Shown: in pieces, positions 4,452 to 43,105 of the stretch | Position numbering within the stretch: the stretch's first letter is position 1 | Layout: each line of letters starts with the position of its first letter | NCBI GenBank assembly: GCA_022763285.1 | Contig: JALEHB010000082.1 | Location: forward strand, 1 to 47,618 | Length of the DNA stretch: 47,618 nt | Reading direction: 5' to 3' | Source: Pseudomonadales bacterium | Lineage (GTDB): Bacteria > Pseudomonadota > Gammaproteobacteria > Pseudomonadales > Pseudohongiellaceae | Program-made: the position numbers and the translations under genes | Notes under the pieces: model-generated | What the model saw: only the letters and a program-made list of their open reading frames with translations | What the model was told of the DNA's origin: nothing | The model's database searches: none

Positions 4452-6509
4452 TTAGAATGAGTAACGGGCCTTCAGCCAGAATTGCCGGCCGGGTTCATTG
4501 ACCCGCACGGCTGTGGGGTCAAACGGGTCCGTGGCTGCAGTGTTCACATGATAGGCATAGGCGCGATCAAACAGATTCTCTGCACCTGCCTCCAGGGTAA
4601 TCTGCTGCGATGGTCTCCAATGGCCATACAGATTCAGCACCCCGTATCCTGCGGTTTCATCGGCAACATCCACTGCCGGATTGAAGTGGGTCTGGCGATC
4701 AGTGGCAATCAGTTCTGCTCCGACGCCCCAGGAATTTCTCGTATAGTCCATGATGAAGCGCGCTTCCAGAGGTGAAATGCGTGCCAGATCGCCGTTGTCA
4801 CCGTCGCCGCGGGTATAGGCAAGCGCCGCCCTTGCATTAAGGTAGCTGCCAAAATCCCGCCCGGCTTCAAATTCCAGGCCGCGGATGCTGGCATCCTGGT
4901 TGCGGTAGAGGGCGGCATTGCCTTGCTGGTAACGCTCAATGTAATCATCCACTTCGTTCCAGTAGGCGCTGGCGCTCCAGTCCAGGACAGCGCCGCGCTG
5001 AATAAAGGTGACATCCAGCTGGTTGTGGGTTTCCGGGTTGATAGTGGGGTTTCCGACCCAGAAGCTTCCTCCGGCGCTGCGAGCCATGAAATTCTCAGAG
5101 GCATCGGGTGTCCGCACTGAGCGGCTGAGATTCACGCTGAGTAAACGACCTTCCAGCAATTCCCGGGTCCAGCCCAGTACAACTCCCAGATCGTTGCTGT
5201 TCAATTCGGTTTCAGTATTGCCATAAAAATTCTGATACAGCCTGGTGGGTGTGGCATTGCCCATCATGCCCGCGCTCTGGCTTGCACTCCTGGCTTCAGA
5301 GGTGAATCGATCATAGCGCAGACCCAACCTCAGGGTATCGGCACTACTCAGATAGTGATCGACCTCGGCGAACAAGCCGCTATGCCGTTGTTCAACATGC
5401 GGCCACATGCGAGACACCAGCATGTCGTAGCTGCCATCTTTGCCCTGATCCATATACAGCATTGCCTGTCTGTCATTGGCGCGAAAATCTGCCCCCAGCT
5501 TGATGGTTGTGGACGTCAGTTCTACAGTGCCCATCAGCTTGCCACCCCAGGTGTCCGACTCGGACTCTGCCGCCATGCCATTAGGCAATGAGTTTCTGGG
5601 GCGCACTCGGTAGTTATCCATCAGGTGAACGACATCAGTGCGATACATGTTCAGTTCAATCGAGTCGAGCGGACCTACAGGGGTCGTGTGTTCCCATTTC
5701 AGGCGATAGGACTCGGAGTCGGCGAAAGGCGCATCCATACTGTTGCCAGCATAGTAAATATCGTCTTCGTTACCCTGCTCCAGTGAAACCTCCAGATAGT
5801 CGCCCGGAGTAATATCACTGCCAATGATGATGCCGATATCTTCGGACTGGTAGGCGGAAGACACAATCTGGCCATTACCGTCTTCGTAATTGTCAGATTC
5901 GGAGTTCTCGCCAAAGACGCGCACGAAGCTGCGTTCATTGCCAAAGGCAACATCCACGGACAGGCTGTTGAGTTCAGAATTGCTGGTGCTGGAGCCGGTT
6001 ACTGCGCCGGTGAAATTGCCGTCCTGCAGATCGGGCCGCTGGTGCTCAAAGATCATCGTGCCGCCACTGCCCCCGGCGCCGTAAATCACCGAACGGTTGC
6101 CTTTGATGACCTCAACGCTGTCAAAACTGTCGAAGCCAACATAGGTGCTTGGCGGGTCCATACGCCCGGGGCAGGCCCCGAAACTGTAAGCACCATTGCT
6201 GATTACATTGAGCTGATTCTGACTCATGCCCCGAATGATGGGCTCAAAACCCAGCCCGCCGCGTCGCGTTGCTGTGACACCATTGACTGAACGGATCAAG
6301 GCTCCAGCATCATTGGTTGGTTTGGTGACCAGAGCTTCACTCAATAATTCCTGCTCAACTGGTTGCAAGCGGTTTTCATAAAATACATCGATCACGTCCA
6401 GCACGCCGATGCTAAGGGTATGATCAACGCGTGAAGAAGGGTCAGATTGTGCAAATACAGCACCGGGAACAGTCAGTGCAATAGCACAGTAAAGTAACTT
6501 GTGTTTCAT
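4452..6509 (-). CDS. oprC: OprC/NosA-type TonB-dependent copper receptor
   Basis: The 685-residue protein has a signal peptide cut after VFA (residue 20), a plug domain and a barrel ending in the canonical aromatic residue (ARYSF). Assignment to the copper-receptor family rests on two ligand motifs known from Pseudomonas OprC. CxxxM is present as C113-P-G-R-M117 within the family signature GACPGRMDPP, and HxM as H295-L-M297. OprC takes up ionic copper across the outer membrane; its relative NosA in Pseudomonas stutzeri was found through copper supply to nitrous oxide reductase. The start at 6509 is preceded by GGAG at moderate spacing. It is transcribed toward the nosR-like gene and ends at a terminator between them. 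Its upstream region has a perfect FNR/Anr box (6630-6643) and a RegA-type palindrome (6580-6594), suggesting expression under oxygen limitation. Substrate assignment is by family; copper transport here is inferred. Confidence 0.9.
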   Translation of the reverse strand: MKHKLLYCAIALTVPGAVFAQSDPSSRVDHTLSIGVLDVIDVFYENRLQPVEQELLSEALVTKPTNDAGALIRSVNGVTATRRGGLGFEPIIRGMSQNQLNVISNGAYSFGACPGRMDPPSTYVGFDSFDSVEVIKGNRSVIYGAGGSGGTMIFEHQRPDLQDGNFTGAVTGSSTSNSELNSLSVDVAFGNERSFVRVFGENSESDNYEDGNGQIVSSAYQSEDIGIIIGSDITPGDYLEVSLEQGNEDDIYYAGNSMDAPFADSESYRLKWEHTTPVGPLDSIELNMYRTDVVHLMDNYRVRPRNSLPNGMAAESESDTWGGKLMGTVELTSTTIKLGADFRANDRQAMLYMDQGKDGSYDMLVSRMWPHVEQRHSGLFAEVDHYLSSADTLRLGLRYDRFTSEARSASQSAGMMGNATPTRLYQNFYGNTETELNSNDLGVVLGWTRELLEGRLLSVNLSRSVRTPDASENFMARSAGGSFWVGNPTINPETHNQLDVTFIQRGAVLDWSASAYWNEVDDYIERYQQGNAALYRNQDASIRGLEFEAGRDFGSYLNARAALAYTRGDGDNGDLARISPLEARFIMDYTRNSWGVGAELIATDRQTHFNPAVDVADETAGYGVLNLYGHWRPSQQITLEAGAENLFDRAYAYHVNTAATDPFDPTAVRVNEPGRQFWLKARYSF

Positions 6510-6629: not shown

Positions 6630-6643
6630 TTGATTCAGATCAA
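6630..6643 (-). promoter_or_regulatory. Perfect FNR/Anr box upstream of oprC
   Basis: TTGAT-TCAG-ATCAA is an exact match to the FNR/Anr/Dnr consensus. Its centre is about 127 bases before the oprC start codon. No good -10 lies at the class II distance; a possible TACTAA at 6621-6616 would put the box over the -35 region. The site is therefore clear, but whether it activates or represses is not. Confidence 0.7.
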
Positions 6644-41089: not shown

Positions 41090-41899
41090 ATGAATTTCGA
41101 TACAACTGAATTGACCGCCCTGGCCATGACCTATGGCCTGAAGTTGCTGGCCGGTCTGGCCACACTGCTGGTGGGTCTGTGGATAGTCAGCATCATCAAT
41201 GGGTTTGTGCGCCGCATGTTCGAGCGCAGCAATGTTGACCCCTCCTTGCGCTCATTCCTTGGCAGCATGATCTCCATTCTGCTCAAGGTGATGGTCTACA
41301 TCACCGCCCTGGGCATGCTGGGCGTGGAGATGACTTCCTTCGTGGCGATTCTGGGTGCTGCTGGCCTGGCGGTTGGTCTGGCCCTGTCCGGCACCCTGCA
41401 AAACTTTGCCGGCGGCGTCATGATCCTGCTGTTCAAACCCTACAAGGTGGGTGATTTCATTGAGGCTCAGGGTTATTCCGGCACCGTCAAGGAAATCCAG
41501 ATTTTCATCACTGTGCTGACCACCCCGGATAACAAGACGGTGCTGATTCCCAATGGCCCCCTGGCCACAGGCTCCATGATCAATTTCTCCACCCAGCAAA
41601 ACCGTCGGGTAGATTGGACCTTCGGTATCTCCTACGGCGATGATGTGGACAAGGCCTATGAAGTGCTGAAAAAACTCATTGCCGATGACCAGCGCATCCT
41701 CACCGACCCCGAACCCTTCATGGCGTTGCATACCCTGGCTGACAGCTCCGTGAACATCGTGGTGCGTGTGTGGGTGAAAGCCGCCGATTACTGGGGTGTG
41801 CACTTCGATATGAATGAAGCGGTGTACAAGACCTTCCCGCAGCAGGGTCTGTCTTTCCCCTTCCCGCAAATGGATGTGCATCTTTCCCGGGAAGACTGA
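41090..41899 (+). CDS. mscS: MscS-family small-conductance mechanosensitive channel
   Basis: ATG 41090 gives 269 residues, the usual MscS length. The frame upstream to 41057 is inside the preceding terminator, so it is not used. Three N-terminal helices end in the glycine/alanine-rich pore helix (LGAAGLAVGLALSGTLQNFAGGVMILLF). The conserved PYKVGDFIEAQGYSGTVKEIQIF begins the cytoplasmic beta domain, with LIPNGPL as the next hallmark. The channel opens under membrane tension and protects against osmotic downshock. Confidence 0.93.
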   Translation: MNFDTTELTALAMTYGLKLLAGLATLLVGLWIVSIINGFVRRMFERSNVDPSLRSFLGSMISILLKVMVYITALGMLGVEMTSFVAILGAAGLAVGLALSGTLQNFAGGVMILLFKPYKVGDFIEAQGYSGTVKEIQIFITVLTTPDNKTVLIPNGPLATGSMINFSTQQNRRVDWTFGISYGDDVDKAYEVLKKLIADDQRILTDPEPFMALHTLADSSVNIVVRVWVKAADYWGVHFDMNEAVYKTFPQQGLSFPFPQMDVHLSRED

Positions 41900-42402
41900 C
41901 AAGCGCTTCAAGCTCAAACACAAGGCCTGGCCCGCAGCATTGGTGATCAACGCCGATGCCGTGGAGTCAGGCTTTTTGCGGTCTGCAGGCTGTAAATCCG
42001 ACTCCGGTGGCAGGCACAGGGGTTTCCAGAGTTGAACCGGGCATTCGGTAGTGAAAGCGGGGGTAGGGAAAAGAGCTCCCCGACCCTCTTTGTCCAGGGT
42101 GTAGGCCTTAAGAGGGCGGGGTACTCAAGGAGCACAGGGGCGCAGAACTATTGAGGTGTGGAGGGCTGCGCCGCAAGCGGTTTTACGCGTGAAAACCACT
42201 ATGCTGTGATTCGGAACGAACAATACCACTATATGTTGTGGATAACAAGCATCGCCTCACTATTCATGTCGAGCCGTCGGGGGCCTGCGGCAACGAGCAT
42301 AGCAAAGCAATTGCTTTATTAATATGCTTGCCAATGATGCAGGGCCAGCGTCAGCTGCCAGGGTCGCTGAGATCAGGGCAATAGGAGCAATGCGGCAGGC
42401 CA
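41900..42402. other. 500-bp gene-free region with strong inverted repeats
   Basis: No convincing frame is present. Three structures stand out. The first is a 12-bp stem with one bulged A (42078-42090 with 42110-42121). The second is GGTTTT/AAAACC around ACGCGTG (42179-42197). The third is the perfect palindrome AAAGCAATTGCTTT (42304-42317), flanked by GCAT and ATGC. ACCACTAT occurs twice between them (from 42195 and 42225). It precedes the FNR box of the candidate sRNA. Confidence 0.6.
42073..42126. repeat. Long imperfect stem-loop in the gene-free region
   Basis: CCCCG-A-CCCTCTT (42078-42090) pairs with AAGAGGG-C-GGGG (42110-42121), with only one bulged A. An outer GAG/CTC pair extends it. 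The 19-base loop and the lack of a T tract argue against a simple terminator; it may be a structured RNA part or a remnant element. Confidence 0.5.
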
Positions 42403-42416
42403 TTGATCCAGGTCAA
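42403..42416 (+). promoter_or_regulatory. FNR/Anr-like box upstream of the candidate sRNA
   Basis: TTGAT-CCAG-GTCAA matches the consensus at 9 of 10 positions and has the form common among Anr sites in pseudomonads. It ends 22 bases before a TTTCAT -10 at 42439-42444, so its centre lies at -41.5. Confidence 0.75.
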
Positions 42417-42434
42417 TTTCCTCCGGGCAGGGCT

Positions 42435-42452
42435 GTGGTTTCATGGAACCAC
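42435..42452. promoter_or_regulatory. Inverted repeat over the sRNA -10 and start point
   Basis: GTGGTT-TCATGG-AACCAC has a perfect 6-bp stem. It covers the proposed -10 (42439-42444) and start point (42451), so a bound repressor would block the promoter, giving a second control besides FNR. It may also be chance. Confidence 0.35.
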
Positions 42453-42551
42453 GTTGGAAAGACAGAGCAATCGAGACTGGCTCTGGTCTGACAAACGGTT
42501 CTCAAGCAGGGATGGGGTTGTCGCTTATACAGGGCAACCCCGTTTTTTTTT
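42451..42551 (+). ncRNA. Candidate FNR-controlled small RNA, about 100 nt
   Basis: A start point near 42451 is set by the -10 and the FNR box, and a strong intrinsic terminator ends the unit: GGGGTTG (42514-42520) pairs with CAACCCC (42535-42541), then G and nine T residues. Inside lies another stem, CAGAGC/GCTCTG (42463-42485), and an unpaired stretch at about 42486-42513 that could be the target-pairing region. A terminal hairpin with a long U tail suits an Hfq-binding sRNA like enterobacterial FnrS or Anr-dependent RNAs in pseudomonads. The alternative is an attenuator leader for the YHS gene, which starts 98 bases past the terminator. No frame in it has a ribosome site. Confidence 0.6.
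42514..42551 (+). terminator. Intrinsic terminator of the candidate sRNA
   Basis: A 7-bp GC-rich stem with a 14-base loop is followed by G and nine consecutive T residues. This is the strongest T tract seen in the window, and it lies upstream of, not after, a protein gene. Confidence 0.85.
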
Positions 42552-42649
42552 GCCTGCCACAATCCTCTGAAAGTTTTCTCCTGTGCTCTGGTCTACTGCT
42601 TTGTCATGCCTGTGTCGGCATGCCAGGCAACAGAACAGGAGTCATTCTG

Positions 42650-43105
42650 ATGATGAGAACAACTGGCAAACTGGCGATCCTGCTACTGGCGTTGGCAGGC
42701 AGTCTGAGCGCCAACGCCGATATCGATCCAGTCTATACCGGCTTCTTCAGCAACGAGGCCATCAAGGGCTACGATGCCGTGGCCTATTTCACCGAGGGCA
42801 AACCGGTCAAGGGTCTGGATCAATTCAGTATTGACTATATGGGTGCCGAGTGGAAGTTTGCTTCCCGGGAGCATCTGGAGATGTTCAGGGCAGACCCGGA
42901 GGCCTTTGCGCCGCAGTATGGTGGTTATTGTGCCTATGCGGTGGCCAATGGAGAGACCGCCAGTGCCGAGCCGGACCTGTGGACAATTCACGAAGGAAAG
43001 CTCTACCTGAATTACAATCGTCGCATCAATGAGCAATTTCAGCAGGACATAGACAACTATATCCGGCAGGCCGACCAGAACTGGCCGAAGATAGAAAAGC
43101 GATAA
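42650..43105 (+). CDS. Exported YHS-domain protein
   Basis: ATG 42650 has AGGAG 8 bases upstream and gives 151 residues; the long frame back to 42443 runs through the sRNA terminator and is not used. A signal peptide ending LSANAD precedes a YHS domain. The typical pattern is AIKGYDAVAYFTEGKPVKG, WKFASREHLEMFRADPEAFAPQYGGYCAYAV and then DLWTIHEGKLYLNYN. Such domains are thought to bind metal, possibly copper or iron. It lies downstream of the FNR-controlled unit, so read-through could link it to low oxygen. Confidence 0.92.
   Translation: MMRTTGKLAILLLALAGSLSANADIDPVYTGFFSNEAIKGYDAVAYFTEGKPVKGLDQFSIDYMGAEWKFASREHLEMFRADPEAFAPQYGGYCAYAVANGETASAEPDLWTIHEGKLYLNYNRRINEQFQQDIDNYIRQADQNWPKIEKR

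Follow-up and report, generated by a model that had tools for sequence, protein, structure and literature searches.

What does the intergenic region between mscS, which ends at 41899, and a YHS-domain gene at 42650 to 43105 encode? The window (the whole 47,618-nt stretch of DNA that was analyzed) places an FNR-type box, a -10-like hexamer, and an intrinsic terminator in this region, at the places that the first-pass annotation had described. These elements could delimit a small RNA (sRNA) in its own right or serve the gene that follows. From sequence and comparison, we consider it highly probable that positions 42451 to 42551 specify a stand-alone, trans-acting, FNR-activated, Hfq-type candidate sRNA of ∼100 nt. 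The features of the locus are as follows.

42403 to 42416, + strand: FNR/Anr box TTGATCCAGGTCAA, 22 nt 5' of the -10 hexamer (class II geometry); box present in 18/18 relatives with the core
42439 to 42444, + strand: -10-like hexamer TTTCAT; TNTNAT in 17/18 relatives, with a box-to-(-10) spacing of 22 nt in 17/18 and 21 nt in one
42451 to 42551, + strand: predicted sRNA, ∼101 nt, with the start placed from the promoter geometry
42460 to 42489, + strand: 5' hairpin, 42460 to 42468 pairing with 42480 to 42489; sequence not conserved
42499 to 42512, + strand: conserved seed-like stretch TTCTCAAGCAGGGA, 14 nt; CTCAAGCAGGG exact in 16/18 relatives
42514 to 42551, + strand: intrinsic terminator, 9-bp stem plus nine T residues; stem covaries among relatives
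42650 to 43105, + strand: YHS-domain gene, the downstream neighbor, outside the sRNA

Promoter and terminator in the window

The FNR box and the 22-nt gap to the -10 hexamer, proposed as a class II arrangement, lie where the first-pass annotation had placed them. The spacing from box to hexamer is observed, and the start at 42451 follows from assuming class II geometry. On its own, the box is weak evidence and proves little, because the window contains a number of box-like sites: at one mismatch or fewer, 16 matches were found versus 5.45 expected (palindromes counted on both strands). A simple promoter/terminator scanner run on the window called neither a promoter nor a terminator at the locus because it demands a -35 hexamer and a loop no longer than 8. 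Elsewhere in the window, a perfect TTGATTCAGATCAA is present at 6630 to 6643, ∼120 nt before a minus-strand gene (4452 to 6509) that we take, from reading its sequence only, to encode a TonB-dependent receptor-like protein; this site is possibly another FNR site.

The terminator stem is formed by 42514 to 42522 pairing with 42533 to 42541 (9 bp, including one G-U), and nine T residues occupy 42543 to 42551. The nine T residues agree with the initial description of the terminator, and the stem, initially given as 7 bp, has 9 bp. The RNA from 42451 to 42551 folds with -36.1 kcal/mol (z = -2.95 versus shuffles). An inner stem, also proposed at the outset, appears in this predicted fold but is not a conserved part of the RNA, as both the sequence and the length of the 5' region vary, and one relative (L007) has no such region. 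Of the stretch initially put forward for target prediction, 42486 to 42513, the conserved portion is the final part (42499 to 42512). The mean unpaired probability of the seed-like stretch is just 0.40 to 0.87.

Conservation within the genus

A BLASTN search with positions 42390 to 42600 against 57 other genomes (36 from the same genus and 21 from other families of the order) gave matches in six genomes, all of the same genus. The matches were confined to query positions 109 to 168 (window 42498 to 42557), and each of the six has an FNR-type box upstream with TNTNAT exactly 22 nt further. A covariance model (R1) was built on the 53-nt core only, comprising the near-invariant CTCAAGCAGGG and the terminator hairpin; the box is not part of the model. 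When 84 genomes of the genus were searched with R1, 20 matched at an E value of ≤1e-3 and 18, including that of the window, at ≤1.3e-7. The family is defined here as these 18 genomes. Four weaker matches without the seed were dropped, namely, those in G091 and G077 and a second one each in G075 and G089; the G077 match has an 8/10 box-like site nearby but carries GACTAG where the -10 would be.

All 18 family genomes have an FNR-type box upstream of the core, in 17 cases within 200 nt. Of the 10 fixed positions of the box, 14 genomes match at least 9 and the remaining 4 match 8, and the spacing to the -10 hexamer is constant save for a single nucleotide in L018 (21 nt). The weakest box, that of L022, reads TTGATTTAGCGCAA and has TTCACT as the -10 hexamer; the box of L020, TTGATATAGGTCAA with TCTTAT, lies 317 nt ahead of the core. 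Spacer sequence and the 5' part of the RNA vary freely between family members. Predicted RNA lengths are 87 to 111 nt in 13 of the 18 genomes, with extremes of 50 nt in L007, where little beyond the seed and the terminator is left, and 317 nt in L020. This pattern supports the initial reading of an independent FNR-controlled sRNA: the species share the promoter geometry, the 14-nt seed-like stretch, and the terminator and differ in the intervening sequence.

Within the core, the exceptions to an exact CTCAAGCAGGG are L022 and L005, the seed of the latter having drifted to TTTTCAAACAGTG. One pair of the terminator stem is broken in L003, and the U-rich 3' end has at least six T residues in 17/18 cores (four in L010). 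In the stem alignment, 95.1% of cells are paired, 3 of 11 pairs are changed on both sides (equaled by 3 of 500 shuffles), and the covariation score exceeds all 500 shuffles; the 18-sequence alignment was fitted to the model and leans towards structure. The same shuffle test on the first seven sequences alone was not significant.

As a control, a collection of 84,980 species was scanned for exact occurrences of CTCAAGCAGGG-N(0-3)-GGGGYTGYC, which retrieved 27 places (11 family members and 16 unrelated). The 11 are titled as Pseudomonadales, Gammaproteobacteria, or Proteobacteria assemblies, and several appear to duplicate family genomes, which means that the set is not independent. The box is within 200 nt in 10 of them, and the eleventh (L053) matches L020, in which the box is further upstream. 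None of the 16 unrelated matches has a box of at least 8/10 within 200 nt (best, 7/10) or a T run in the 77 bases covered. A box match of 8/10 is in itself no rarity, as it was also found near one of the four dropped genus matches (G077) and three of six weak matches from the wider family. The evidence beyond chance is the conservation of the box with the core at a fixed spacing. Survival of box and terminator in related genomes had been set beforehand as a test of the sRNA, and both are kept in 18 of the 84 genomes of the genus.

These comparisons also bear on another origin of the signal, namely, a short coding gene or a chance terminator behind an FNR-regulated promoter with another role. 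Box-like sites elsewhere in the window speak for such an origin, but the box and core occur together in 18/18 genomes at a fixed -10 spacing, which refutes it unless the alignments are wrong. The RNA moreover shrinks to ∼50 nt in L007, and other members have ACG or AAG in place of the ATG of the window core, or lack it. We attach hardly any probability to this explanation.

The sRNA appears to be confined to the genus. A second model (R2), made from the 18 sequences, was searched against 137 family genomes (84 from the genus and 53 others) and 390 genomes drawn from the order, and no further credible member was found in the 53 other family genomes or the 390 order genomes; searches over 40 genomes used stricter filters and scored few candidates in each genome, and remote members could have escaped them. 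Seven weak matches outside the genus were rejected, six from other genera of the family (E values of 1.9e-5 to 5.3e-4) and one from the order (3.1e-5); all are without the seed and resemble simple terminators. An 8/10 box-like site, with the box alone scored, is present within 300 nt of three of the six family matches. Viral contigs contained no exact match to a 24-base segment of the core.

Neighboring genes and the leader alternative

The first-pass annotation had named an attenuator leader for the YHS gene as the main alternative. More generally, the RNA could be the 5' leader of whichever gene follows, with the hairpin stopping transcription from the FNR promoter unless signaled otherwise. 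In the window, the YHS gene has the same orientation as the sRNA and begins ∼100 nt past the T run, followed by a convergent M48 peptidase gene. Across the family, a co-oriented gene comes next in 7/18 genomes, as a leader would have it: the YHS gene in one, MauE-like genes in five (G098, G012, G025, and G088, all under the Pfam cutoff, and G080, by a matching 159-amino-acid frame only), and in G004 a gene that we take, from reading, to be redoxin-like. The next gene is, however, convergent in 10/18 genomes, encoding an M48 peptidase in G099, G060, G075, G023, and G002, a 3-keto-disaccharide hydrolase in G089, G087, and G069, a GGDEF-CBS protein in G066, and a gluconate dehydrogenase subunit in G068; in G011 the contig ends.

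Because the next gene is convergent in 10/18 genomes, the RNA is not a leader of the YHS gene, which adjoins the core in the window alone. The same count largely refutes the general leader model, and the 5' part is too divergent between species for an evident shared antiterminator. We regard an attenuator as very improbable. By sequence, the conserved, covarying terminator and the convergent neighbors point to a predicted stand-alone transcript with its own terminator.

Fnr, Hfq, and the predicted mode of action

The genome of the window encodes an Fnr protein (NF008365, 262.6 bits; cutoff, 228) with the CxxCxxxxxC cysteines and the VETVSR recognition helix. At an E value of ≤1e-20, Fnr was found in 14/18 genomes with the sRNA versus 20/66 without it (Fisher p = 4e-4, kinship ignored); one of the latter 20 proteins scores below the cutoff. 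Among genomes that are at least 90% complete, the corresponding counts are 11/13 and 14/35 (p = 0.009, kinship ignored). The association is incomplete in both directions. The Fnr gene was not found in four genomes with the sRNA, G004 (69% complete), G023 (86%), G002 (90%), and G069 (90%), and 20 genomes have Fnr and lack the sRNA. Hfq is encoded in all 18 sRNA genomes, including that of the window. By sequence and comparison, the locus has the box, the fixed spacing, the conserved core, and the covarying terminator, and its genome has the Fnr and Hfq genes.

From these elements we infer transcription, an oxygen response, Hfq binding, and mRNA pairing, in the following order. At low oxygen, an Fnr dimer would bind 42403 to 42416 and, in class II geometry, would activate RNA polymerase at the -10 hexamer without a good -35 element, a step for which the sequence evidence is strong. 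The resulting RNA of ∼100 nt would end at the terminator (42514 to 42551), and Hfq would bind its U-rich 3' end. UUCUCAAGCAGGGA, directly 5' of the terminator, would then pair with mRNAs and, when oxygen is limiting, change how they are translated or how stable they are. This pairing step is proposed by analogy.

Candidate targets were sought as matches to TCCCTGCTTGAGA with at most one mismatch in nine genomes. The search gave 68 sites, 9 of which are the sRNA itself, leaving 59 others; the reversed pattern gave 31. The other sites were read for start codons by eye, with no formal clustering, and on this judgment the 59 near-perfect complements in nine genomes included no gene shared near its start. 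Perfect complementarity to the seed over 13 nt was found at two sites, L124 (G000:C127:12041) and L137 (G068:C35:30883), compared with a hand estimate of ∼1 by chance. One is intergenic, just past an apparent stop codon, and the other lies 118 nt before the start of an hslV-like gene (both the stop codon and the gene name being our reading of the sequence); neither is common to the genomes.

The conserved core might alternatively titrate a protein rather than pair with mRNAs, as CAGGGAYG is similar to a CsrA/RsmA site. The GGA after CAG is kept in 15/18 cores, in keeping with such a role, but it is absent in L007, L022, and L005, and the conserved core has a single site of this kind. Conservation also runs well past the GGA (CTCAAGCAG exact in 16/18 versus GGA in 15/18), although this difference is thin. 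We judge titration to be quite improbable and favor a base-pairing sRNA.

Relationship to known sRNAs

The sRNA did not attain the gathering score of any Rfam family. Chance matches far under the gathering scores (P31, H19_2, JPX_1, and a flavivirus stem-loop) were set aside. The Rfam model of FnrS (RF01796, named frnS there) did not list the sRNA even at an E value of 10, and E. coli FnrS, as a positive control, reached 134.8 bits with the same model; membership in the FnrS family is ruled out by this model.

Several characterized sRNAs are nonetheless similar in kind. PhrS of P. aeruginosa is an Anr-dependent Hfq sRNA and is likened here by description. FnrS of E. coli is FNR activated, as is predicted for the candidate, with which it shares a similar length (∼120 nt) and an intrinsic terminator; by analogy, the candidate may act on its targets in an FnrS-like manner. 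Nucleotides 17 to 37 of E. coli FnrS (TCAAGCGATGGGCGTTGCGCT; L054, 246 to 266) can be aligned, with gaps, with the sRNA core (TCAAGC-GATGGG-GTTG-CGCT), an alignment equaled by 4, 0, and 2 of 1,000 shuffles for three query forms in a post hoc test. The similar stretch is near the 5' end in FnrS, whereas it is at the terminator in the sRNA. Given the post hoc nature of the test and the different placement of the stretch, we treat the resemblance only as a lead. The stretch does not overlap the sites altered in the three FnrS mutants described previously (PMC8595263).

SicX (PA1414) of P. aeruginosa is activated by Anr at low oxygen and pairs with an mRNA leader; the paper describing it reports no homologue outside P. 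aeruginosa (PMC10247376). The candidate is likened to SicX by description, as an sRNA predicted to be under low-oxygen control of the Fnr/Anr type. A literature survey judged by titles and the opening of abstracts retrieved nothing describing the sRNA or the second RNA considered below. Taken together, the sRNA looks like a previously undescribed family within the known kind of FNR/Anr-activated sRNAs.

A second conserved RNA and a palindrome upstream

Two further features lie between mscS and the FNR box.

42077 to 42249, + strand (inferred): RNA-B, a second conserved structured RNA of ∼175 nt, with covariation
42301 to 42320, no strand assigned: degenerate palindrome AGTAAAGT-N4-ACTTTACT with 4 mismatches, between RNA-B and the FNR box

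RNA-B was found once per genome in 48 of the 84 genomes of the genus and in none of the 53 others in the family. It is present in 16 of the 18 sRNA genomes (absent from G060 and G075), and in G004 it is on a different contig from the sRNA. In an alignment of 30 of the 48 sequences, which was fitted to the model, 14 of 29 pairs have both bases changed, and none of the measures is reached by a shuffle. The plus strand is favored, with a fold of -23.6 versus -20.8 kcal/mol for the other strand and 81 G-U versus 26 A-C cells; the first and last helices alone lean to the opposite strand. RNA-B has no match in Rfam. It is not 6S RNA, which is located elsewhere, and it is not a leader of DUF3667, as the adjacent gene varies and DUF3667 is missing in the window. 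At the 30 loci, the gene to the left of RNA-B is DUF3667, MadL, DUF4920, MscS, or none that was recognized.

The palindrome lies to the right of RNA-B in genomes without the sRNA as well and is a possible operator of a SufR-like regulator. A copy sits beside a SufR-like regulator gene in 7 of 10 palindrome loci read. The one SufR-like protein scored reached 127 bits with TIGR02702, below the cutoff of 178.8, and in the genome of the window neither of the two palindrome sites (at most two mismatches) adjoins a SufR-like gene. Across 12 genomes, 25 sites were found versus 17 for the reversed pattern, a slight excess. Because copy number is barely over the control, only the position of the palindrome supports this assignment.

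The unpaired CTCAAGGAG of RNA-B (24/30 sequences) is one base off the CTCAAGCAG of the sRNA. In the window, the motif CTCAAGNAG is common to RNA-B (42124 to 42132) and the sRNA (42501 to 42509), one base apart, a likeness that may be due to chance.

A more speculative model, which we consider rather unlikely, is that the two new RNAs form a tandem in one oxygen/redox circuit. An older, genus-wide RNA-B with a SufR-like operator would be joined by a younger, FNR-activated sRNA, and their nearly identical exposed motifs (CUCAAGGAG in RNA-B and CUCAAGCAG in the sRNA) would address the same partner, with one RNA per regulator.

Significance

The known FNR-controlled sRNAs come from a small number of well-studied bacteria. 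The candidate would add a case in a clade whose 11 named records are all metagenome assemblies, and its anatomy is unusually clear, with one relative of ∼50 nt being little more than seed and terminator. It would also offer a test case for the gain and loss of oxygen-responsive sRNAs together with Fnr. RNA-B, for its part, could be a larger discovery than the sRNA.
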